Below are positions 4,158 through 22,509 of a DNA stretch of 64,000 nucleotides, in pieces (position 1 is the first letter of the stretch; every line of letters starts with the position of its first letter). The notes below the pieces were generated by a model. That model was not told the origin of the DNA and did not search any database. It saw only the letters and a program-made list of their open reading frames with translations. The translations under genes were made by a program, and so were the position numbers. The stretch comes from Reyranella sp. (GTDB lineage Bacteria > Pseudomonadota > Alphaproteobacteria > Reyranellales > Reyranellaceae): the NCBI RefSeq assembly GCF_030651995.1, contig NZ_JAUSBN010000071.1, forward strand, positions 1 to 64,000, in the 5' to 3' direction.

Positions 4158-4925
4158 TTAGAACGCCGGCACCGGGGCCTGAGGCACGTTCTTCCAGAAG
4201 TCCGGATCATGTCCGAAGAAGAGCCGTGCACCGCTCTTCTCGAGAGCTTCGAGCCGGTCGAGCGAGGCCAGCATCTGCTCGCGGTCATAGACGAAGCGCG
4301 GCAGGCGGCGTTCGCGCAGGGTCCGGCAGAAGTAGCAGGCGTCGCCGGTGATCACGATCTCGCCCGCCTCGGTGCGCACCTTGAGCGATTGATGACCCGG
4401 CGTATGGCCGTAGGTCGGTATACAGACCACGGAGCCGTCGCCGAACAGGTCGTGCTCGCCCTCGACCTGCTTCACCGGATGGCCATGGTCGAAGTCGGCG
4501 CGGAAGAAGCCGACCTTGGCCGCCGTCTCCGGGTCCTGCGCCGCCTGCCATTCGCGCTTCTGCACCACCATCGTGGCGTTGGGCACCAGCTCGTTGCCGC
4601 CGGCATGATCGAAATGCAGGTGGCTGTTCACGATGAAGTCGACCTTGCCGGGATCGCGGTCGATCGCTTCAAGTCGCGACTTGACGTCGTCCTCGGGACC
4701 GTACTGCTCGAAGCCGAAGATCCGCGCCACGCCAGCGCCCATGCGGCCGGCCGCGTCGGTGCGGCACTGCGGGTGCATGCCGGTGTCGAACACCGCCCGT
4801 CCCTTCGGGTGTTCGATCAGGTAGGAGGGAATGGGCAGCGTCACCTGCCCGTCCTCGCCCTCGATCATGTCCTTGAGGCGGCCGACCAGGCGGCCGCAGG
4901 TCATGGCGTAGAGCTTGACGGCCAT
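4158..4925 (-). CDS. Metallo-beta-lactamase-fold hydrolase, N-acyl homoserine lactonase (AttM/AiiA) type
   Basis: A 255-aa cytosolic MBL-fold enzyme. The dinuclear metal site is complete: SHLHFDH (H102, H104, D106, H107), HTPGH (H178), GDA (D195) and FGHD (H239). Length, the N-terminal LYAMTCGRL and the overall order of motifs match the AttM/AiiA group, which opens the lactone ring of acyl-homoserine lactones or of small metabolic lactones. No luxI/luxR genes are nearby, so quorum quenching is possible but not shown. Located 2 nt after the 3' end of gatB on the same strand, so it may be co-transcribed with it. Confidence 0.8.
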   Translation of the reverse strand: MAVKLYAMTCGRLVGRLKDMIEGEDGQVTLPIPSYLIEHPKGRAVFDTGMHPQCRTDAAGRMGAGVARIFGFEQYGPEDDVKSRLEAIDRDPGKVDFIVNSHLHFDHAGGNELVPNATMVVQKREWQAAQDPETAAKVGFFRADFDHGHPVKQVEGEHDLFGDGSVVCIPTYGHTPGHQSLKVRTEAGEIVITGDACYFCRTLRERRLPRFVYDREQMLASLDRLEALEKSGARLFFGHDPDFWKNVPQAPVPAF

Positions 4926-4927
4926 CG

Positions 4928-6376
4928 TCAGGCGTCGAGCGCTTTTTTCAGCAGCTCGTTGACGACCTTCGGGTTGGCCTTGCCTCCGGTCGACTTCATG
5001 ACCTGGCCGACGAACCAGCCGAACAGTGTGGGCTTGGCCTTGTAGGCCGCGAGCTGGCCGGGGTTGGCGTCGATCACCGCCTTGATGGCGGCTTCAATGG
5101 CGCCGGTATCCGTCACCTGCTTCAGGCCGCGTTCCTCCACCAGGACGGCCGGGTCCTTGCCCGTCTCCTCCATGGCGGCGAACAGGTCCTTGGCGATGCG
5201 GCCGGAGATGGTGCCGTCCGCCTGAAGGTCGAGCAGCTTACCGAGATGGGCGGCGCTGATCGGCGAGGTCTCGAAGGTGGCGCCGCGCCGGTTCAGCATG
5301 GCGAAGAAATCGCCGGTTACCAGGTTGGCGGCCTGCTTGGCGTCGCGGCCCTTGGCGACAGCCTCGAAGAACTCCGCCGTCGACTTTTCGGCCGTCAGTA
5401 CGCCCGCGTCATAGGGCGAGAGACCGAAATCCTTGATGTAACGGTTCTTCCGCGCGTCGGGCAGCTCCGGCAGGGTGGCCCGGATCTGGTCGACATAGTC
5501 CTGCGTGAAGATCAGCGGCAGGAGGTCGGGATCGGGAAAGTAGCGATAGTCCTGCGCGTCTTCCTTCGAACGCGACGAACGCGTCTCGCCGCGCCCCGGA
5601 TCGAAGTTCCGGGTTTCCTGCTTGATCGTGCCGCCACCTTCGATCACCTCGACCTGGCGGCGCGCCTCGTATTCGATCGCCTGCTTCACGAAGCGGATCG
5701 AGTTCACGTTCTTGATCTCGCAGCGCGTGCCCAGCTCGCCGCCCGGCCTGCGCACCGACACGTTGACGTCGCAGCGCATGGAGCCCTCGTCCATGTTGCC
5801 GTCGCAGGTGCCGAGATAGCGCACGATCGAGCGCAGTTTGGTGAGATAGGCCGCCGCTTCGTCGGCGGTGCGCATGTCGGGCTTGCTGACGATCTCCATC
5901 AGTGCCACGCCCGACCGGTTCAGGTCGACATAGGTCTGGCTGGGATGCTGATCGTGCATACTCTTGCCCGCATCCTGCTCGAGGTGCAGCCGCTCGATAC
6001 CGATCTTCTTGGTGACGCCGCCGTCGAGATCGATCTCGACCACGCCCTCGCCCACGATCGGATCCTTGTACTGCGAGATCTGGTAGCCCTGCGGCAGGTC
6101 CTGGTAGAAGTAATTCTTGCGGTCGAAGATGGAGCGCAGGTTGATCCTGGCGTTGAGTCCGAGACCGGTCCGGATCGCCTGCTCCACACAGCGCTCGTTG
6201 ATCACGGGCAGCATGCCGGGCATGGCGGCGTCGACCAGCGACACCTGCGTGTTGGGATCGGCGCCGAACGCCGTCGGCGCGCCTGAGAAGAGCTTGGCGT
6301 CGGAAATCACTTGAGCGTGGACTTCCAGCCCCAGCACGATCTCCCACTCGCCGGTTTCACCTTTGATGAGCGACAT
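4928..6376 (-). CDS. gatB: Aspartyl/glutamyl-tRNA amidotransferase subunit B
   Basis: A 482-aa GatB. It binds misacylated tRNA and carries the kinase site that phosphorylates the Asp/Glu side chain before amidation with ammonia from GatA. The N-terminal cradle begins [13 protein letters not shown] and contains the family signatures [15 protein letters not shown] and [15 protein letters not shown]; the C-terminal YqeY-like helical domain (about 330-482) includes [16 protein letters not shown] 6376 is chosen by alignment to the family; it has no Shine-Dalgarno and a -10-like box lies 6 nt upstream, suggesting a leaderless message. Its partners gatC and gatA are at 9409-11202, separated by two unrelated genes. 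Confidence 0.95.
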
Positions 6377-6382
6377 GGCGGT

Positions 6383-6411
6383 TAGATAGCCAATAGCGAC
6401 CCGCTTGGCAA
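6383..6411 (-). promoter_or_regulatory. Candidate gatB promoter, leaderless arrangement
   Basis: Minus strand: TTGCCA (6411-6406), 17-bp spacer, TATCTA (6388-6383). The expected start site falls at or within 1-2 nt of the gatB ATG (6376), which agrees with the absence of an SD sequence there. Motif match is moderate. Confidence 0.4.
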
Positions 6412-6558
6412 AAAGATCGGTCTGCGACGTCGCGTTACGCCACATTTTCGGCACAAGATCACACTACCCGATGCCGAAGAGGCTGAAGTAAAAGCTTGGG
6501 TAAGGAGCGGCCGCTTTCGGCGCGCCCACAACAAGACGTATCCGCAGGGAGGATTTCA

Positions 6559-7542
6559 ATGACGACATTCAATCGCCGTACGCTGCTCGTCGGCGCCGCC
6601 GCCGCGACGCTGGGGGCGCCGGCCCTCGTTCGCGCCCAGGCCGCCCCCGACTGGCCCAAGGGGGCCCTCAAGATCATCGTTCCCTTCCCGCCGGGCGGCT
6701 CGACCGACCCGGTGGCACGCATCATCCAGGCCAAGATGATCGAGAACACGGGCTGGAACATCCTGGTCGACAACAAGCCGGGCGGCACCGGTGCGGTCGG
6801 TTCGGCGATCGCTGCCAAGGCCGCGCCCGACGGCCAGACCTGGATGCTGACCTTCGACAGCCACATCCTCAATCCCGCCTTTGCGTCAGGCCTGCCCTAC
6901 AAGGATTCCGAGCTGTTCAACGTCATGCAGATCGGGCGTACGCCGCAGGCGATCTGCGCGCACCCCGACCGGCCCTACAAGACCTTCGCCGAGGTGATCA
7001 CCGACGCCAAGGCGCGGCCGGGCAAGGTCAATGTCGGCGTACTCGGCGCCAGCCAGGCGCTGGTGCTGATGACCCTCATCAAGAAGGAGAATGGCGTCGA
7101 CCTCAATCTGATCCCGTACAAGGGCGGCGGGCCGCTCAACCAGGACATCCTGGCGGGCGTCACCGACGTCGCCATCGGCAGCCTGACGTCCTTCAGCCCG
7201 CATGTCCGCGCCAACAAGGTCCGGGCGCTGGCCGTGACCGGCGAGAAGCGCACACCGGCGCTCCCCGACACGTCCACGCTCATCGAGCAGGGCGTCAAGG
7301 CCTTCCCCTCCTACTCCTGGTGGGGCGTCTACGCGCCGACCGGCACCCCGCGTCCGATCGTCGACCGCATGCATGCGGAGATCAAGAAGGCGGTCCTGGC
7401 GCCCGACGTGACGCAGAAGTTCGTCGACCAGTTCAACATGGAGATCCTGACGACTTCGCCCGAGGAGTTCGCCGCCTACCAGAAGAGCGAACAGGAGCGC
7501 TGGTTCAAGGTCATCAAGGACAACGACATCAAGGGCGACTGA
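6559..7542 (+). CDS. Bug-family (tripartite tricarboxylate transporter) substrate-binding protein
   Basis: A 327-aa periplasmic solute receptor of the Bug/TctC family (PF03401). The signal peptide has a Tat-like NRRTLLVG start and ends near ALVRAQ. The mature protein opens with the family motif IIVPFPPGGSTDPVAR, and later has NKPGGTGAVGS and PYKGGGPLNQD, both ligand-pocket loops. SD GGGAGG precedes the ATG. No TctA/TctB membrane genes are next to it, so it is an orphan receptor like many Bug proteins. The convergent D-aminoacylase-type gene could be a functional partner; ligand unknown. Confidence 0.9.
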   Translation: MTTFNRRTLLVGAAAATLGAPALVRAQAAPDWPKGALKIIVPFPPGGSTDPVARIIQAKMIENTGWNILVDNKPGGTGAVGSAIAAKAAPDGQTWMLTFDSHILNPAFASGLPYKDSELFNVMQIGRTPQAICAHPDRPYKTFAEVITDAKARPGKVNVGVLGASQALVLMTLIKKENGVDLNLIPYKGGGPLNQDILAGVTDVAIGSLTSFSPHVRANKVRALAVTGEKRTPALPDTSTLIEQGVKAFPSYSWWGVYAPTGTPRPIVDRMHAEIKKAVLAPDVTQKFVDQFNMEILTTSPEEFAAYQKSEQERWFKVIKDNDIKGD

Positions 7543-15596: not shown

Positions 15597-16769
15597 TCAA
15601 GGGCAGAGCGGTGCCGGCGATGGGCGAGCCAGCGCTTCGGCATCCAGCGAGCGGAGGAAGGCCACGAGATCGGCGCTCTGCTCCACCGTCAGGCCCAGCG
15701 GCCGGACCAGGGGTATGCCATCGCTGTGGAGGCGATCGGGACTAACCTCGGAATAGTGCCTTATGACGTCTTCGAGCGTTGCGAGGCTGCCATTGTGCAT
15801 GTACGGGCCGCCGCGGCCCACCTGGCGCAGGCCGGGGACACGAAACTCCCCGAAGTTCGTATGCTGACGCTGGACATGCCGCGTACGCCGGGCGTTGCTG
15901 CCGGACGCATCGTCATTGTACTTGCCGAGCAGGTTGAAGGGGCTGGCCGCCAGTCGGCCCAGCCCGCCGTGTCGGCCAGGATCGACCTCGCCCGGTCGGA
16001 CGAAGAACGGGATGCCGATGTCGCCGAACTCGCCGCTCGTGAAGCGTGGCCCGAGATGGCAGAGGTTGCAGCTGGCCTCGCCGATGAACAGCTTCAGCCC
16101 GCGTTGCGCCGCGAGCGGATAGCGTGACGCGCTTTCGCGATCACCGGCCAGCAAAGCATCGCGGAAGTCATCGAAGCCTGTGCGCGGGCTGACCAGTGTC
16201 GCCTGGAAGGCCGCCAACGCCTTGGCCGTGTCGACCAGCAGCCGCTCGTCATCGCTTCCGGGCCTGCTTCCGAATGCTCGTTCATAGCCGCAGGCGAACG
16301 CGGCATCGCTTCGCAGCAGTTCGCCGGCGCGCGTCGGGCCGCCGTTCATCTCTCGGGGATCGAGCAACGGACGGATGCTCTGGGCCCACAGCGAGTCGCC
16401 CGCCCCGTCCCAGCCGAACCAGTGCAGATACCCGATGTTCCACAGCGATGGTGTGCGGCGATCGAGTTCGACCGCGCCGCGCGCTTTGGCGAGACCGTCG
16501 CTCCATTCGCGGCCAGCCTGATGGCACGTGGCGCAGCTCATGCGTCCATCTCCCGACAGGCGCGGCTCGTTGAACAGATGCTCGCCCAGCGCGATGCCGG
16601 CGGGCGTGCCGGACACTTTGTTCGAGGGGTCTTGCACAGGCGGCGGGGGCCAGGGGCCGTGCTGCCCGACTGCCCTGATTTCCTCGGCCGACCAGTCGAG
16701 CAGATGCTGCGCACGGACGCCGACGGCCCCTGCCGCCAGCAAAGAAACCAGCAGCAGCAGTCGGATCAC
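15597..16769 (-). CDS. Exported diheme cytochrome c peroxidase (CcpA/MauG family)
   Basis: A 390-aa periplasmic diheme enzyme. A signal peptide (about 1-20) is followed by two haem c sites: CATCH (C79-C82-H83) and CNLCH (C234-C237-H238). GPYMHNGSLATLEDV (from about 321) carries the conserved Met/His loop near the second haem. Relatives either reduce peroxide or, like MauG and MbnH, oxidise a partner protein. Start is GTG 16769, which overlaps the stop of the upstream YtkA-like gene by 4 nt (GTGA), so translation is coupled. Last gene of a four-gene operon; the neighbouring small exported protein is the obvious partner. Confidence 0.85.
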   Translation of the reverse strand: MIRLLLLVSLLAAGAVGVRAQHLLDWSAEEIRAVGQHGPWPPPPVQDPSNKVSGTPAGIALGEHLFNEPRLSGDGRMSCATCHQAGREWSDGLAKARGAVELDRRTPSLWNIGYLHWFGWDGAGDSLWAQSIRPLLDPREMNGGPTRAGELLRSDAAFACGYERAFGSRPGSDDERLLVDTAKALAAFQATLVSPRTGFDDFRDALLAGDRESASRYPLAAQRGLKLFIGEASCNLCHLGPRFTSGEFGDIGIPFFVRPGEVDPGRHGGLGRLAASPFNLLGKYNDDASGSNARRTRHVQRQHTNFGEFRVPGLRQVGRGGPYMHNGSLATLEDVIRHYSEVSPDRLHSDGIPLVRPLGLTVEQSADLVAFLRSLDAEALARPSPAPLCP

Positions 16770-17170
16770 TTGAGGATGATATCGTGCGTCAGGCGCTCGC
16801 TCTCGCTGCCCGCACGTACGTCGAAGGTGATTTCCCAACGGCCGGGCATGTGGAACAAGAGCCCCTCGGCCCTGAAGCGACCGTTACCCTTCGCCACGAT
16901 GGTGGCCCGGTAGTTCATGCCATGTCGATGCTCGGGCATGTTGGCATCCACTGCCAGCAGCTCGGCGGCACCGCTGCGCCTGGTGCAGACATTGACGAGC
17001 AGGGCGAACGGCTCGCCCACTTCGATGCGCAGCGGATCGGACCGGAACGCCATCAGGTAATGATCGGAAAAGACGACCCATCCGGTGCCGCGTCCCAGGT
17101 CTAGCGGGCAGTCGTCGGCCCAGGCCGGCGTCGCCAGGAGAACTCCCAGCAATGCCGCGGCAAGCCTCAC
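16766..17170 (-). CDS. Small exported YtkA/FixH-like protein
   Basis: A 134-aa secreted protein: signal peptide to about residue 18 (TPAWADD), then a single Ig-like beta domain of the FixH/YtkA type. It carries a run of potential metal ligands, NMPEHRHGMNY (M79, H81, H83) and LLFHMPGRW (H107, M108), and two tryptophans, W31 and W112, plus C21 and C62 that could form a disulfide. Start is GTG 17170, overlapping the amidohydrolase stop by 4 nt; the longer frame reading upstream is antisense-like and rejected. The His/Met pattern suggests copper binding, and the adjacent diheme enzyme suggests a MbnP/MbnH-like pairing. Both are inference. Confidence 0.75.
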   Translation of the reverse strand: MRLAAALLGVLLATPAWADDCPLDLGRGTGWVVFSDHYLMAFRSDPLRIEVGEPFALLVNVCTRRSGAAELLAVDANMPEHRHGMNYRATIVAKGNGRFRAEGLLFHMPGRWEITFDVRAGSESERLTHDIILK

Positions 17171-17985
17171 GGCGCGCCTCCGAACAGCCGGTCGCCATTT
17201 TCGTACGCGATCTTGCGCGCGACGTCCGGCGGCAGGTCCGAAAGCCACTGCCGCGACCAGCGGGCATTCTCGATCACATAGTGCCAGCGCTCCGGCGTGA
17301 AGGTGTCGCTGCCCAGCACGAAGCGGTCGGGAAACTCGATGAAGAGTTCGCGCCAGCCTGGCGCCACCTTGCCGTTCGAGACGTGCGCGGTGAGGAAGGC
17401 GAGATCGCACCACAGGGTCGGATACCGGCGCAGCATCTCGCGCACCGTCTCCGGCCGCTCGAAGCCCGAATGCGCCCACAGGACCTTGGCGTTCGGGTCC
17501 TGCTGGAAATGCCGCGTCACGGCATCGGCATCGGAATGCGAATGCAGGAAGAGCCCGTACTGCTTTGCCAACTCGACGACGCGACGCACGTTGGGCAGGT
17601 CGGCATCGGCGCCGTAGATGTGGAACTCGCCGATCGCCCTGTACCTGCGCTTCGACAGCAGGTCCTCGAGATACGGGATCACCGTCGGATCCTTCGCCCA
17701 GGTCGAGATCTCGCCGCGCGAACGATAGGGCCGCAACTCGGGCACGATCATGCCCGGCGCCACGTCCTGCAGCATTTTGGTGCCCTCGTTGTTGGAGCTC
17801 GACACCATGGCGCGCTTTATGCCGGCCTTCTTCAGGATCTCGACCACTTCATTCGGCGGCACGACCGACCAAGCGTCGTGGCTGTAATGCATGTGGGCAT
17901 CGAAGATCGGCAGCTCGTCGGCCGCCCGCGCGGTGGAGACGCCGGTGGCAAACACCAGGAAAAGCACGAGGGAGAAGAGGCGCAT
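17167..17985 (-). CDS. Exported amidohydrolase (PF04909, TIM-barrel metal hydrolase)
   Basis: A 272-aa protein with a signal peptide (MRLFSLVLFLVFATGVSTARA) and a TIM-barrel amidohydrolase-2 domain. The metal motif is FDAHMHYSHD (HxH), with later LHSHSDADAV and WAHSGF supplying His ligands and LGSDTF the catalytic Asp. The family includes decarboxylases, lactonases and hydrolases. A periplasmic location is unusual for it. Start is the ATG preceded by GAAGGAT. Second gene of the operon, 10 nt after the oxygenase and overlapping the YtkA-like gene by 4 nt (GTGA). Confidence 0.8.
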   Translation of the reverse strand: MRLFSLVLFLVFATGVSTARAADELPIFDAHMHYSHDAWSVVPPNEVVEILKKAGIKRAMVSSSNNEGTKMLQDVAPGMIVPELRPYRSRGEISTWAKDPTVIPYLEDLLSKRRYRAIGEFHIYGADADLPNVRRVVELAKQYGLFLHSHSDADAVTRHFQQDPNAKVLWAHSGFERPETVREMLRRYPTLWCDLAFLTAHVSNGKVAPGWRELFIEFPDRFVLGSDTFTPERWHYVIENARWSRQWLSDLPPDVARKIAYENGDRLFGGAP

Positions 17986-17995
17986 CGTCGATCCT

Positions 17996-18628
17996 TCAGC
18001 GGCCGGTCTTCGGCGGGCAGGCGTAGTTGAAGCTAATCGAGATGCGTTCGCCGGAGAAGTGCGCCGGCGGCACCTCGTGGCGCAGCCAGCTTTCGAACAG
18101 CACCAGATCGCCGTCATGCGCCGCCACGCTTACGAAGGCACGATAGGCTTCCGGGGCATCGGCGCGACGCGGCGGCGCGGCCATCTGGTAGCCGAGCCGC
18201 GGGTCCTCGAACTTGATCGCGCCCGCCCCCTTCGGCACCGACACGTAATAGGTCCCGCTAATGAAGGAGGTCGGATGGATGTGCATTGAATGGACCGTGC
18301 CGGCCGGCATGAGGTTGGCCCAGCAATCCGTCATCGCGAGAGTCCGGCTGGCCAGATCGTAATGGAGGTCGCGCGCGAAGCTCTTCACGTGCACATCTAT
18401 TCGGCGGCGCAGCCGGTCGAACAGCGAGGAAACGAGGTGCAGACGGTCGAGGGAACCATAGGACGTATAGCCGCCGAGATAGTGCTTGGCCGACCAGCGC
18501 TGTCCCGCCGCATCCGAGGCCGCCAGCGACTGGCATTCGTCGGCGAGATCCTGGTTGAAGCGCCGCCAGCGCCGGTCGACGAGCGACTCGCGATAGATAA
18601 GGGTCGGGAAAAGAGCACGGCTCGTCAT
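17996..18628 (-). CDS. Putative 2OG-Fe(II) oxygenase (TIGR02466 type)
   Basis: A 210-aa protein of the conserved family described by TIGR02466, predicted 2-oxoglutarate/Fe(II)-dependent oxygenases with no settled function. The double-stranded beta-helix core shows HSMHIHPTSFISGTYYV (H113-Y128, with H116 and H118 likely iron ligands), KFEDPRLGY and the distal His in LFESWLRHEV (H184), followed by Arg in GERISISFNY for 2-oxoglutarate. No signal peptide, so cytosolic, unlike the three genes after it. Start is the ATG giving MTSRALFPTL; no SD is seen and a GATAAT box lies 6 nt upstream, suggesting a leaderless message. First gene of the four-gene operon. Confidence 0.78.
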   Translation of the reverse strand: MTSRALFPTLIYRESLVDRRWRRFNQDLADECQSLAASDAAGQRWSAKHYLGGYTSYGSLDRLHLVSSLFDRLRRRIDVHVKSFARDLHYDLASRTLAMTDCWANLMPAGTVHSMHIHPTSFISGTYYVSVPKGAGAIKFEDPRLGYQMAAPPRRADAPEAYRAFVSVAAHDGDLVLFESWLRHEVPPAHFSGERISISFNYACPPKTGR

Positions 18629-18673: not shown

Positions 18674-19564
18674 ATGCTGACCGATCATCAAATCGAGACC
18701 TACCGCCGCGACGGCTATCTCGTGATCCCGCGCCTGATCGAGGGGGCGCAGCTCGCCGAGCTCCGCACGCTGACCGACCGGCTGGTCGCCGAAGCGCGCG
18801 GCGTATCGGCCAATGACGATCTCTACGATCTCGAGCCCACCCACAGCGCCACGATGCCGAGGGTGCGCCGGCTGAAGCCCGCCATCTTCAAGCGCCACGC
18901 CTTCTTCCGCGACCTCGCCCGCGACCCGAAGATCACGTCCCTGCTTGCGCAGCTCATAGGCCCCGCCCTCCGCCTGCATGGCGGCAAGCTCAACATGAAG
19001 TCGGCGGGCTATGGCTCGCCGGTCGAGTGGCACCAGGACTGGGCCTTCTATCCGCACAGCAACGACGACGTGCTGGCGACCGGCATCTATCTCGACGATT
19101 GCGACGAGGCCAACGGGCCTCTCATGGTGGTCCCGGGCTCGCATCGCGGGCCGGTCCACGACCACCATGCCAACGGCCGCTTCTGCGGCGCGTTCGATCC
19201 AGAGGCGAGCGGGGTCGATGTCACGAAGGCCGTCCCGCTCATGGGTCCGGCCGGCTCAATGACCATCCATCATGCGCGGCTGGTCCACGGTTCGGCGCTC
19301 AACCGGTCCAATCGCCAGCGCCGGCTCCTGCTGCACGAATATGCCGCCGCCGATGCCTGGCCGCTGATGGGAGTCGCCGACTTCGACGAATTCAACAGCC
19401 GCATGGTGCTGGGCGAGCCGACGATCGAGCCGCGCGTCCGGCCGGCCCCGGTCCGCATGCCCCTGCCACCGGCCGATCACCAGGGCTCGATCTATGAAAA
19501 CCAGCGCGGCTCGGGTCGGCGCTTCTTCGACACCTACGAAGAGCGGCCCGCCCTTGCCGATTAG
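18674..19564 (+). CDS. Phytanoyl-CoA dioxygenase (PhyH) family protein
   Basis: A 296-aa PhyH-type 2-oxoglutarate/Fe(II) dioxygenase. The iron triad is visible as WHQDWAF (H120, D122) and LVHGSALN (H205), with R216 or R217 downstream for 2-oxoglutarate; CDEANGPLMVVPGSH is a family signature. PhyH relatives hydroxylate small molecules such as ectoine, phytanoyl-CoA and natural products. Divergent from another 2OG oxygenase gene. The exported protein gene follows after 12 nt and is likely in the same transcript. Confidence 0.88.
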   Translation: MLTDHQIETYRRDGYLVIPRLIEGAQLAELRTLTDRLVAEARGVSANDDLYDLEPTHSATMPRVRRLKPAIFKRHAFFRDLARDPKITSLLAQLIGPALRLHGGKLNMKSAGYGSPVEWHQDWAFYPHSNDDVLATGIYLDDCDEANGPLMVVPGSHRGPVHDHHANGRFCGAFDPEASGVDVTKAVPLMGPAGSMTIHHARLVHGSALNRSNRQRRLLLHEYAAADAWPLMGVADFDEFNSRMVLGEPTIEPRVRPAPVRMPLPPADHQGSIYENQRGSGRRFFDTYEERPALAD

Positions 19565-20134: not shown

Positions 20135-21220
20135 TCAGTCGGACCGCGGTCCGACGTAAGTCGACTGCGGCCGGATGAGGCGCCCGCCCTTCTCCTGCTC
20201 GAAGATGTGGGCGCACCACCCGGCGGCGCGGCCGACGGCGAACAAGGCGGTGAAGGCGCTACGCGGCACCTCGAGCGCCTCCAGCAGCAGCGCGGTGTAG
20301 TATTCGACGTTGGTGTCGAGCCGCTGCTTCGGCTTGTGCTTGCGCAACGAGGCAATGGCGCTGCGTTCGACCTCGACCGCGAAGGCCAGCCGGCCCGCCG
20401 TCTGCGGCAGCGTCGCCACGGCGTTCTTCAGCACGTCCGCCCGGGGATCGCGCTTCTTGTAGATTCGGTGACCGAAGCCCATCAGGCGCGTACCGTTGGC
20501 GAAGGCATTGTCCAGCCACGCCTCGGCGCGCTCGGGCGATCCGATCTCGTCGAACATGTCGAGCACCGGGCCGGGCGCCCCGCCGTGCAGCGGCCCCTTG
20601 AGGGCGCAGAGCGCCGCCAGCACCGACGAGATGAGCCCGGCGCGGGTCGAGGCGACAACCCTCGCGGTGAAGGTCGAGGCGTTGAAGCCATGGTCGGTGA
20701 CGGTCGCGAGATAGATATCGAGCCCCTTCTCGAAAGCCTCGTCGGCGCGCTTGCCGCGGATCATGCGCAGGAGATCCTGCGCCGTCGTGAGGGCCGTATC
20801 CGGCGCGAGCGCCGGCTTTGAGTCGGCCGCCCGCAGCAGCGCGGCGAGGAAGACCGGGAGCGCGCCGCACACCAGGTAGTGATGCGGCGTGGGATCGGAA
20901 TCCGGCAGCATGCCGAGGCCGACACGCAACCCCTCCACAGGGCTGAGCCCCTTGGCGGCGCCCAGCAGCTTCGGGACGTCCGCGAAGGCACGCTGGCGCG
21001 CCGCGGCCAGTCCGGCCCGCACCGCCGCCTCATCGCCGCCGCCCTCGGCGAAGCCTTCCCAGAGCCGTGCGGCGACGCCCTCGAAGCCGCACGTCTTCAC
21101 GAGGTCCTCGATCGCCTGGCCGCGGACGATCAGCCTGCCGGCCTCCCCGTCCACCTCGCTCATCACCGTGTCGGCCACGATCACGCCGTCGAGCCCGCTG
21201 TCCACCCGTGTCTGCAGCAT
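20135..21220 (-). CDS. Citrate synthase / 2-methylcitrate synthase family enzyme
   Basis: A 361-aa type-II-like citrate synthase, shorter than the 430-aa TCA enzyme. It has DHGFNASTFTAR (176-187), GPLHGGAP (H212) and GFGHRIYKKRDPRAD (H251). The usual catalytic Asp is replaced by Glu in NVEYYT (E306), as in several citrate/methylcitrate synthases of the CitA group, so activity is plausible. It condenses acetyl- or propionyl-CoA with oxaloacetate. No prpB/prpD genes are nearby, so it is probably not the housekeeping TCA enzyme nor part of a propionate operon. SD AAGGGG. Divergent from the HTH/citrate-synthase fusion gene. Confidence 0.85.
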   Translation of the reverse strand: MLQTRVDSGLDGVIVADTVMSEVDGEAGRLIVRGQAIEDLVKTCGFEGVAARLWEGFAEGGGDEAAVRAGLAAARQRAFADVPKLLGAAKGLSPVEGLRVGLGMLPDSDPTPHHYLVCGALPVFLAALLRAADSKPALAPDTALTTAQDLLRMIRGKRADEAFEKGLDIYLATVTDHGFNASTFTARVVASTRAGLISSVLAALCALKGPLHGGAPGPVLDMFDEIGSPERAEAWLDNAFANGTRLMGFGHRIYKKRDPRADVLKNAVATLPQTAGRLAFAVEVERSAIASLRKHKPKQRLDTNVEYYTALLLEALEVPRSAFTALFAVGRAAGWCAHIFEQEKGGRLIRPQSTYVGPRSD

Positions 21221-21246
21221 CGCAATCCCCTTGCTGTTCCGGGCTC

Positions 21247-21275
21247 AACATTCGATCCAGCCTATGTATTGTCAA
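21247..21275 (-). promoter_or_regulatory. Candidate promoter of the citrate synthase gene
   Basis: Minus strand: consensus TTGACA (21275-21270), 17-bp spacer, AATGTT (21252-21247). It gives a leader of about 20 nt containing the AAGGGG SD. The -35 overlaps the palindrome at 21271-21282, so a protein bound there would compete with RNA polymerase. Confidence 0.45.
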
Positions 21276-21298
21276 TATTGACTGTATTAATCCATAAT
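21269..21298 (+). promoter_or_regulatory. Candidate leaderless promoter of the HTH/citrate-synthase gene
   Basis: Plus strand: TTGTCA (21269-21274), 18-bp spacer, CATAAT (21293-21298). The start codon at 21304 falls where transcription should begin and there is no SD. The spacer contains the palindrome, as in MerR-controlled promoters. Confidence 0.4.
21271..21282. promoter_or_regulatory. 12-bp perfect palindrome, probable operator shared by two divergent genes
   Basis: GTCAATATTGAC is its own reverse complement and lies in the 83-bp gap between the citrate synthase and HTH/citrate-synthase genes. It overlaps the -35 boxes of both directions. The HTH protein encoded next to it is the natural candidate to bind it. 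Confidence 0.5.
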
Positions 21299-21303
21299 AA
21301 GAA

Positions 21304-22509
21304 ATGGCAATCGAATGGCTCACCTCCAAGGAAGCGGCGCGACGTCTGGGCGTTTCGGCCGCCACGCTCTACGCCTATGTGAGCCGCGGCCTGCTGCGCT
21401 CGGAAGCCACGAACGGCCAGCGTGAGCGGCGCTACAGGGCCGACGACGTCGCCCAGCTCAAGCGTCGCCGCGAGGTCGGCCGCAAGGCCGAGTCGATCGC
21501 CGCGAACGCCCTCGACTTCGGCACGCCGGTTCTCGAGTCCTCGCTGACGCTGATCGAGAACGGCCGCCTCTTCTATCGCGGCCAGGACGCGGCGCGGCTG
21601 GCACGCAACAGCTCCCTGGAACAGGTCGCCCAGCTCCTCTGGGACTGCGACGACCGGCCCTTCGCCGCGCGTAACCTGCCGCCCCTGTCCGCCGCCCTGC
21701 GCAGTGCCTGGCAGGCCGCCTCGGCCCTGCCCCCGGTCGATGCCTGCCTCGTGCTGCTGCCGGCCGCATCGCGCTGGGATCATCCGAGCTGGGTGGAAGA
21801 TCGCCCCGCCATGCTCGAGACGGGCGCGCGCATCCTGCGGCTGCTGGCAGCCGCGGTAACCGGCCAGCCCCTCTCCGATCGCCCGATCCATGAGCAGGTG
21901 GCCACGGCCTGGAATGTTCCGCCCGAGCTCGCGCCGCTGATCCGTGCCGCCCTCGTCCTGTCGGCCGATCACGAGTTCAACGCCTCTGCCTTCGCCGCCC
22001 GCGTCGTGGCTTCGACCGGCGCCAATCTCTATGCCTCCACGATGGCGGGACTGGTGGCGATCAATGGCCCCCGTCACGGCGGACTGACGCGCCGCGTGGC
22101 GGGTCTCCTCGCCGATCTTGCGCAAGTACCCGACATCGACGCCGAGATCGCGCGCCGGGTGAGCGAGCGCATCTACATCCCGGGATTCGGCCACCAGCTC
22201 TATCCGGACGGCGACGTCCGCGCTCTCGTCCTCTTCTCGATGATGCGCGAGTTCGTCCCCGGCTCTGCAGAGCTGGCTTTCGCCCAGCGCGTGGCAAGCG
22301 CCGTCGAGCAGCAGATCGACCGCAAGCCGACCGTCGATTTCGCGACGGTCACCCTCGCCCGCGTCCTCGGCCTGCCGAAGGAGTCGGCTCTGGCCCTGTT
22401 CCTCCTCGGACGCACCGTCGGATGGATCGCGCACGCCATCGAGCAAGCCGCACACGGTGCGCTGATAAGGCCTCGTGCGCGTTACACCGGACCGCGTCCG
22501 CCGGCCTGA
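21304..22509 (+). CDS. Helix-turn-helix / citrate synthase fusion protein
   Basis: A 401-aa protein. Residues 1-55 are a MerR/excisionase-type winged HTH (TSKEAARRLGVSAATLYAYV, then ERRYRADDVAQLKRRR). Residues about 70-400 form a citrate synthase domain that keeps all three catalytic positions: GPRHGG (H258), PGFGHQLYPDGD (H297) and TVDFAT (D345), plus ADHEFNASAFAARV. Such fusions are annotated as citrate synthase in databases but their role is unsettled. Given the divergent citrate synthase and the palindrome between them, a metabolite-sensing regulator is a good hypothesis; an enzyme with a DNA-binding tail is the alternative. No SD; probably leaderless. Confidence 0.88.
   Translation: MAIEWLTSKEAARRLGVSAATLYAYVSRGLLRSEATNGQRERRYRADDVAQLKRRREVGRKAESIAANALDFGTPVLESSLTLIENGRLFYRGQDAARLARNSSLEQVAQLLWDCDDRPFAARNLPPLSAALRSAWQAASALPPVDACLVLLPAASRWDHPSWVEDRPAMLETGARILRLLAAAVTGQPLSDRPIHEQVATAWNVPPELAPLIRAALVLSADHEFNASAFAARVVASTGANLYASTMAGLVAINGPRHGGLTRRVAGLLADLAQVPDIDAEIARRVSERIYIPGFGHQLYPDGDVRALVLFSMMREFVPGSAELAFAQRVASAVEQQIDRKPTVDFATVTLARVLGLPKESALALFLLGRTVGWIAHAIEQAAHGALIRPRARYTGPRPPA

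Follow-up and report, generated by a model that had tools for sequence, protein, structure and literature searches.

A conserved amidohydrolase, YtkA-like and MauG-type gene cassette in Reyranella and other Alphaproteobacteria, with a putative YtkA metal site that follows its partner genes

Four genes at the locus and their predicted products

The present analysis concerns four consecutive genes, here called OXY, AMI, YTK and MAU, which run on the minus strand from position 18628 down to 15597 of a 64,000-nucleotide stretch of Reyranella sp. (contig NZ_JAUSBN010000071.1, positions 1 to 64,000; hereafter the window). OXY (17996-18628) encodes a 210-residue 2-oxoglutarate (2OG)-Fe(II) oxygenase of TIGR02466 (227.7 bits; also matched by PF13759), AMI (17167-17985) a 272-residue Amidohydro_2 hydrolase, YTK (16766-17170) a 134-residue YtkA-like protein with a GTG start and MAU (15597-16769) a 390-residue MauG-type diheme enzyme, likewise with a GTG start. 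OXY and AMI are spaced by 10 nucleotides (nt) and the AMI/YTK and YTK/MAU pairs each overlap by a 4-nt GTGA, an arrangement already given in a preliminary description of this DNA and confirmed here from the open reading frames (ORFs) and the sequence. The same description assigned one cytosolic and three exported products, which fits the signal-like N-termini, judged by eye, of AMI, YTK and MAU and the lack of one on OXY; all three are accordingly predicted to be exported. Among the species-named matches of MAU are R. aquatilis (88%) and R. massiliensis (81%), with uncultured relatives reaching 94%, and the genus label Reyranella for the genomes compared below was inferred from the MAU matches to named species.

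As had been described, a MauG-type enzyme comes last: MAU carries a PF03150 domain (120 bits) and two heme motifs, C79-x-x-C82-H83 (16521-16535; C82 and H83 in 71/71 non-gapped rows) and C234-x-x-C237-H238 (16056-16070; 70/70 non-gapped rows). The MauG residues Trp93, Pro107, Glu113 and Tyr294 correspond in the alignment to MAU W120, P134, E140 and Y339, all present in every non-gapped row, Tyr339 (15753-15755; Tyr in 65/65 such rows) being the equivalent of the MauG tyrosine that is the sixth ligand of the second heme. Because of the PF03150 domain, the two CxxCH motifs and this tyrosine, MAU is placed by its sequence in the CCP_MauG superfamily, with a predicted Tyr/His-ligated second heme of the MauG/BthA type. 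Trp199 of MauG relays oxidising equivalents to the substrate; the corresponding MAU position is Gly or Ala in 70/70 non-gapped rows, as would be expected if MAU had a different partner.

MAU scores 182.7 bits against TIGR03791 (MauG; cut-off 443.85) and 139.4 bits against TIGR04039 (MbnH; cut-off 362.85), thus below both cut-offs, and 14.5 bits against NF040606, a diheme peroxidase subfamily. In the PDB ranking of the full-length protein, 6e1c, listed as 'Di-heme enzyme' and which we take to be MbnH, stands first (3.8e-26), followed by the cytochrome c551 peroxidase 4aao (1.9e-24) and MauG (6.7e-24), and MauG ranks first when only the core is aligned. The second-best match, 4aao, the membership of MAU in the diheme peroxidase family and the resemblance of YTK to a Cu(I)-type Met/His protein would suit a peroxidase for which YTK is the copper electron donor or copper-safety partner, peroxide being removed or Cu(I) oxidised without protein modification. 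Such a role is nevertheless unlikely, given the Tyr at the MauG Tyr294 position and the MauG and MbnH scores set against that of NF040606, and it would leave AMI unexplained.

YTK is indeed a small YtkA-like protein with two tryptophans in its mature form, W31 and W112 (W17 falls inside the signal-like stretch), its match to PF13115 being below the cut-off. Since its relatives P0006 (45.5 bits) and the L046 protein (44.4 bits) pass PF13115, the window protein is regarded as a divergent YtkA relative. The AlphaFold model of YTK has a predicted local distance difference test (pLDDT) score of 85, on a shallow alignment of 15 sequences (the window protein and proteins of related loci). Its top fold match is H. 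pylori CrdA (9ll2, 9ll4; Foldseek E 6.6e-6), with a VIA Z of 13.6 and 1.8 Å over 99 residues for the predicted model. Lower matches are DUF4426 (Z 9.7), DUF4785 (9.3) and the copper-binding FetP/HftA/P19 (about 7.5-8.6), the last of which do not clearly outscore filamin repeats (about 8), an unrelated group. When the YTK sequence profile is searched against the PDB, CrdA is again the best match (E 0.0029; next match 0.27), and YTK is therefore predicted to adopt a YtkA/CrdA-type fold. The profile alignment pairs YTK M78, H81, M85, M108 and W112 with Met, Met, Met, Met and Trp of CrdA; these methionines are placed at M69, M72, M75 and M99, the numbering being matched by motif spacing to the available text of PMC9182242. 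In that text, a Cu(I) site formed by M69, M72, M75, M78 and M99 is proposed for CrdA. On sequence grounds, copper is the probable metal of the candidate YTK site.

The AMI-YTK-MAU cassette and its gene neighbourhood

In a class sample of 385 alphaproteobacterial genomes, MAU was found in 26 genomes (E<=1e-100), YTK in 27 (E<=1e-15) and AMI in 28 (E<=1e-80). AMI and YTK directly adjoin MAU in 26/26 MAU genomes, always in the order AMI-YTK-MAU, and the 4-nt overlaps are often retained among these loci. The 27th YTK genome, G053, has only OXY and YTK at the locus (OXY-YTK type, see below), and the weaker YTK matches beyond these 27 (30 at E<=1e-3) comprise two AMI-free YtkA-MauG pairs (G281, G430) and one locus without MAU (G196). 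An order sample of 76 genomes contained YTK in 72, and all 72 loci were classified: 48 are OXY-AMI-YTK-MAU (in one the contig ends before OXY and in one MAU is broken), 16 OXY-YTK and eight AMI-YTK-MAU. The four-gene form occurs in 47/63 YTK-bearing Reyranella genomes and, in a related genus, in the single genome L131.

Across Alphaproteobacteria the AMI-YTK-MAU order recurs, and the 4-nt overlaps frequently recur with it, which indicates that the arrangement is not due to chance. That the genes are ordinary neighbours of unrelated function, brought together by accident or by a shared promoter, would describe OXY and is in line with flanking genes that vary between lineages; for the other three, the 26/26 adjacency, the conserved order and overlaps and the residue-level co-variation described below make it extremely improbable.

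OXY was not seen beside the cassette within the fetched stretch of any of the 30 loci outside Reyranella and L131 (eight from the same order, 22 from others), OXY orthologs (62%) are present in two genomes of related genera, G002 and G003, both without YTK, and OXY still adjoins YTK in the 16 Reyranella genomes where AMI and MAU are missing. For these reasons OXY was dropped as a member of the pathway, the part that the preliminary description had given to the 2OG oxygenase. A functional unit of four genes is accordingly rejected, and of the proposed co-occurrence of four families elsewhere only AMI-YTK-MAU remains. By sequence and gene order, the conserved unit is AMI-YTK-MAU, a seemingly self-contained periplasmic cassette, with OXY probably a lineage-specific operon neighbour outside the cassette function.

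Genes beside the cassette were surveyed by clustering the crude ORFs of 54 loci and running Pfam on the longest member of each of the nine largest clusters, some of which may be shadow ORFs, the ORF caller having also missed some core genes. One cluster is the MauG gene of the cassette, four received Pfam names (ABC ATPase, glutathione S-transferase, histidine kinase and beta-lactamase fold; no copper family) and four had no Pfam match. With this partial annotation, no recurrent transport gene was identified beside the cassette in the 54 loci, apart from an ABC-3 metal transporter found in a single three-genome group (L091, L094 and L097), which gives the copper-acquisition role once suggested for the locus no clear support. 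What stands of the earlier copper proposal is a real conserved unit of MauG-type enzyme, His/Met-rich protein and amidohydrolase, with a likely link to copper.

In L091, L094 and L097, the neighbours of the cassette include an ABC-3 metal permease and an ABC ATPase, plastocyanin/azurin-family proteins, a regulator of the FUR family and a further MauG-like gene.

YTK residues that follow MAU and AMI

In the 16 Reyranella genomes of OXY-YTK type, YTK lies directly after OXY with neither AMI nor MAU at the locus. AMI and MAU were not found genome-wide in 15/15 of these genomes at E<=1e-8, nor at E<=1e-5 in the sixteenth, G033, which is 60% complete and whose contig ends just past YTK. Trees were built on flanking genes, 8 of 56 rows having been dropped for short flanks; a 47-row tree and a tree of 58 of 63 rows were used, the latter for change counts only, since the motif trait was there set equal to the loss label. 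At least six changes between the full and the OXY-YTK state are needed on the 47-row tree and at least seven on the 58-row tree, five being forced by starred (well-supported) branches, and a single clade for the 15 OXY-YTK genomes is rejected (approximately unbiased (AU) test, p 1.3e-6). The tree alone fits gain or loss; because synteny is retained on both sides, the OXY-YTK states are read as losses.

The Reyranella region made of RuvX, the cassette, OXY, PhyH, two citrate synthases and PyrB is largely syntenic, OXY-YTK genomes included. The PhyH gene (phytanoyl-CoA dioxygenase family), at 18674-19564 of the window on the plus strand, starts 45 nt from OXY on the opposite strand; it is present in 32/41 full loci (the remaining nine being short or cut) and in 10/15 OXY-YTK loci, the other 5/15 having no PhyH at that syntenic place. 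At 20135-22509 lie two divergent citrate synthase paralogs, one with a fused N-terminal MerR-type helix-turn-helix.

The residue counts given here cover 65 of the 72 order loci and 22 loci outside the order, the other seven order loci being compared as aligned stretches only. Three groups were compared: 42 cassettes of Reyranella and L131, 30 cassettes elsewhere and 15 OXY-YTK genomes. Within residues 20-134 of YTK, 46 positions are conserved in at least 41/42 cassettes of the first group, and only nine of these drop to 3/15 or fewer in the OXY-YTK genomes: M78, P79, H81, H83, M85, N86, Y87, H107 and M108. All nine are kept in 29 or 30 of the 30 cassettes from other genera. The likely metal site thus falls in two halves, the first in the stretch MPEHRHGMNY at residues 78-87 (16910-16939), whose M78, P79, H81, H83, M85, N86 and Y87 are each present in at least 71/72 proteins with a linked MAU and in at most 3/15 of OXY-YTK proteins, the second at H107-M108 (16847-16852), with 72/72 and 0/15 respectively. 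Among loci with an intact MAU, 63/65 have all nine residues and 2/65 have eight; among the 15 aligned OXY-YTK genomes, nine keep none, four keep one, one keeps two and one keeps three. Weakened positions, retained in 7 to 10 of the 15, are F55, I91, F106, D117, G121 and R126, and C21, C62, G110 and W112 are retained in 15/15. In the sixteenth OXY-YTK locus, L196, H81, H83, M85, Y87 and H107 are replaced and M78, P79, N86 and M108 kept. From these alignments, the YTK fold seems to be kept in OXY-YTK genomes and the His/Met/Tyr site to be lost.

On the 47-row tree, the presence of MAU at the locus and that of the YTK motif, computed from the alignment, match in all rows (32/0/0/15, where L130 and L161 are scored as having MAU despite its damage) and in 5/5 independent pairs. 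The seven genomes added last agree as well, six being full with the motif and L196 lacking AMI with a degraded motif, as judged from aligned stretches only. MAU is intact in 65/72 linked loci, the rest being four contig-end cuts and three lesions, and AMI is free of stops in 69/72. Judged by sequence, the YTK site is very likely coupled to MAU/AMI, and the earlier proposal of conserved His/Met positions holds in that the nine-residue motif tracks the presence of MAU. Repeated gene loss within one genus acts here as a natural experiment that points to a protein partner for MAU and, within that partner, to nine residues.

Several observations weigh against this coupling or against MAU as its cause. 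The table becomes 30/0/2/15 if L130 and L161 are scored as MAU-less, and a sign test on the five independent pairs gives only p 0.0625. AMI and MAU are missing jointly in the 16 genomes, where the motif could depend on AMI instead of MAU. The motif is retained in L130 (MAU with an internal deletion and a stop), L161 (one stop) and L026 (frameshift), and L131, L091 and L099 carry a stop in the AMI match and yet keep MAU and the motif, the stop of L091 being near the end and that of L099 in-frame at a conserved Trp, with the adjoining YTK and MAU open. Recent inactivation or assembly error could explain the retention of the motif beside a lesioned MAU or AMI. In L130 (G035, 6000-6830), only the two ends of MAU are left around a large internal deletion, and there is a stop; AMI, YTK and the motif are intact. 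No second MAU copy was found in genome G035, and on the 58-row tree L130 groups with L125 and L126, both without AMI, MAU and motif. L130 is read, from its sequence, as a recent loss in progress in which MAU was the first to go.

By a simple method, with several synonymous rates (dS) near 1, the ratio of nonsynonymous to synonymous rates (dN/dS) is 0.05-0.36 within seven pairs of OXY-YTK form, and the same method gives 0.56 for the cross-state pair L126/L130. The former values indicate that the YTK genes of OXY-YTK form are still constrained. In the group L083, L118 and L119, the motif-less YTK is under constraint, with a dN/dS of about 0.05. Motif-less YTK thus seems, from its sequence, to have a second role independent of the metal site.

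The tryptophans do not behave as the nine residues do. W31 is found in 29/42 cassettes of Reyranella and L131 and in 0/30 of the others, and W112 (16835-16837) in 42/42 and 30/30 cassettes and also in 15/15 genomes without MAU, with an aligned Trp in CrdA. W112, conserved with and without MAU, is therefore probably structural, a fold residue, and the part of the conservation claim that concerned Trp did not stand. In MbnP/MbnH, a Trp of the small partner is converted to kynurenine. The preliminary description had proposed the same chemistry here, MAU converting a YTK Trp to kynurenine and so building a copper site, and it has in its favour that a diheme enzyme adjoins a small secreted partner and that the best PDB match of full-length MAU is 6e1c, presumably MbnH. 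This is now highly unlikely: W31 is absent from all 30 cassettes outside Reyranella and L131, W112 does not depend on MAU, MAU lies below the MbnH and MauG cut-offs (139.4 against 362.85 for TIGR04039) and YTK appears unrelated to the MbnP domain. For the latter, no TIGR04052 (MbnP) match was found in YTK, and hhalign gives a probability of 0.3% between YTK and the MbnP-like domain of four fused proteins (only four rows), two of which were scanned and score only 37-38 bits on TIGR04052, whose cut-off is 140. An MbnP structure does not appear among the YTK fold matches listed, which is not taken as evidence of absence. A Trp-centred model was consequently dropped, as the Trp residues do not follow MAU.

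In the verrucomicrobial and related loci L049-L052, MbnP-like and MbnH-like diheme domains are found in one chain (two of the four were scanned, below curated cut-offs).

Relatives of the L108 MAU at E<=1e-60 were found in 12 of 299 phylum genomes, eight from one genus, and in 11/12 a YtkA-like ORF lies just upstream with MPxHxHG and a Met before GWW. L045, L107 and L108, found partly through YTK itself, are further AMI-free pairs. Since AMI-free pairs keep MPxHxH and the Met, the association of M78, P79, H81, H83 and M108 with this type of MAU does not require AMI, and N86, Y87 and H107 appear from the alignments to be mostly features of the AMI-linked family. In the AMI-free pairs L183-L193, L045, L107 and L108 of other Proteobacteria, GWW, with its extra Trp, occurs in 13/14 and Asn-Tyr is missing in all. 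The YtkA protein of L108 has a His/Met-rich N-terminal stretch.

A possible pathway and its relation to known systems

AMI scores 47.1 bits against PF04909, above the cut-off of 26.4, and its likely metal ligands H31, H33, E120, H150 and D227 (within 17167-17985) are kept in at least 71/72 rows, the remainder being gaps; they are nearly always intact in AMI-only copies too. The AMI model, of only fair quality (pLDDT 74; shallow alignment), is an amidohydrolase barrel, close to TatD, to phosphotriesterase-like enzymes and to 3cjp (Z 17.9), an amidohydrolase that is itself uncharacterised. None of the fold matches listed stands out as an enzyme whose function is clear, which is not taken as evidence of absence, and by this model the matches are too mixed for a substrate to be named.

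As AMI is the only obvious enzyme apart from MAU, YTK and MAU could serve to mature it, YTK delivering the metal and MAU modifying AMI, as proposed for the methanethiol oxidase MtoX with SCO1 and a MauG homolog. MtoX loci combine an enzyme, a copper chaperone and a MauG homolog in one operon (PMC5739008, in its available text), and Cupriavidus L046 has a different amidohydrolase directly before a MauG-like gene. We consider this rather unlikely, since the AMI ligand pattern is that of an ordinary amidohydrolase and YTK-MAU pairs occur without AMI. In addition, among positions kept in at least 70/72 rows, only P178, A196 and F229 differ from both nearest AMI-only copies, L163 and L164; because only three strictly conserved positions are specific to the MAU-linked copies, AMI is disfavoured as the modified protein.

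In L046, the Amidohydro_2 gene and the MauG-like gene (Pfam assignments) lie at 4831-7089 and make up a second neighbourhood of amidohydrolase and MauG type; a YtkA-like protein is encoded on the opposite strand, some 4.6 kb away.

The best reading, its chemistry left open, is that MAU acts on the likely copper site of YTK and that AMI belongs to the same pathway, which we put at slightly short of an even chance. It is directly supported by the conservation of the cassette, the MauG-type active-site residues, the loss of nine YTK residues and the predicted CrdA-like fold. From these we infer copper as the metal, the action of MAU on YTK with its chemistry, and the role of AMI. Met78, His81, His83, Met85 and Met108 of YTK would hold a metal, most likely Cu(I), and His107, Asn86 and Tyr87 would flank them. 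MAU, with its predicted Tyr/His-ligated second heme, would use hydrogen peroxide on this site and either oxidise one of its residues (Tyr87, for example, or a His/Met) or oxidise the bound copper and change its redox state; its action would make or switch the mature metal site of YTK. AMI would be a metal-dependent hydrolase acting in the same periplasmic pathway as YTK. Covalent modification of YTK by MAU is a tentative proposal, held with less confidence than the general reading, and the fuller proposal, a peroxide-driven non-Trp oxidation by which MAU would create or switch a copper site of mixed His/Met(/Tyr) type in a YtkA/CrdA fold, is more doubtful still. From the alignments, Tyr87 is the obvious candidate for oxidation in the AMI-linked family, AMI-free pairs being without it and having mostly an extra Trp beside Trp112.

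To the counterpoints given for the coupling, others are added that bear on action of MAU on a YTK copper site. Canonical cytochrome c peroxidases match full-length MAU about as well as MauG does (1.9e-24 against 6.7e-24), the YTK match to PF13115 (23.3 bits) is under the Pfam gathering score of 25.9, and the YTK model rests on its shallow alignment. AMI-only genomes exist: AMI copies 52-53% identical occur in G284 and G181, and 18 more genomes have a distant AMI at E<=1e-20; YTK and MAU were not found at 18 fetched loci of these 20 genomes, several of the loci being short or cut. No recurrent copper gene was identified beside the cassette among the crude-ORF clusters of the 54 partially annotated loci. 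Finally, a recognised YtkA protein directly adjoins just one of the 11 distant MAU relatives L045-L055, namely L045.

To our knowledge, no substrate has been assigned to many of the MauG-like diheme enzymes, and here a pair of small proteins makes the question of a MauG-type substrate testable. Provided that copper is the metal, bacteria would have in this cassette a further means of making or controlling a copper site, one tied to a hydrolase pathway in alphaproteobacteria. A description of the cassette was not found in the literature searched for MauG/YtkA/cytochrome c peroxidase/amidohydrolase/copper combinations, subscription papers lying mostly outside that search. The pairing of a MauG homolog with a copper-type partner has precedents in MbnH/MbnP, MopE/SACCP and MtoX-SCO1-MauG; the combination of a YtkA/CrdA-type fold with an amidohydrolase and the pattern of loss were not found in the literature searched.

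With MauG, which acts in methylamine dehydrogenase biogenesis, and with BthA, MAU shares the CCP_MauG domain, the two CxxCH motifs and the second-heme Tyr, as far as the available text of PMC6405878 goes; unlike MauG, it lies below the equivalog cut-off and is without a Trp199 equivalent, and no mau gene is among its identified neighbours. B. subtilis YtkA/CtaK and the YtkA domain of YcnJ share with YTK the YtkA-like domain, by a sub-threshold match only; in the available portion of PMC13344008, genetics supports a role of the B. subtilis YtkA domain in CuA-site assembly, and the main text mentions neither MauG nor MbnP. H. pylori CrdA gives the best fold and PDB profile match and has a Met cluster at the aligned positions, but according to the available text of PMC9182242 it is a copper-resistance protein without His or Cys, whereas in YTK the motif mixes His with Met, a Cys pair is present and a MauG-type enzyme is the partner. 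The MtoX-SCO1-MauG operon follows, in the available text of PMC5739008, the same three-gene logic of an enzyme, a copper chaperone-like protein and a MauG homolog, with MtoX and SCO1 in the places taken here by an amidohydrolase and a YtkA-like protein. The MbnP/MbnH, MopE/SACCP and CorA/CorB systems of methanotrophs likewise set a small secreted partner beside a MauG-like diheme enzyme, and a copper site in the partner is described and kynurenine reported for MopE (PMC3621798, in its available text). In contrast to these, YTK is predicted to be CrdA-like, the residues that co-vary with MAU are His, Met and Tyr rather than Trp, and the alphaproteobacterial family has an amidohydrolase as a third member. 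Should non-Trp oxidation of the YTK site prove true, the cassette would show a second way in which an enzyme installs a copper site, unrelated to that of MbnH/MbnP and coupled here to a hydrolase pathway of the periplasm.

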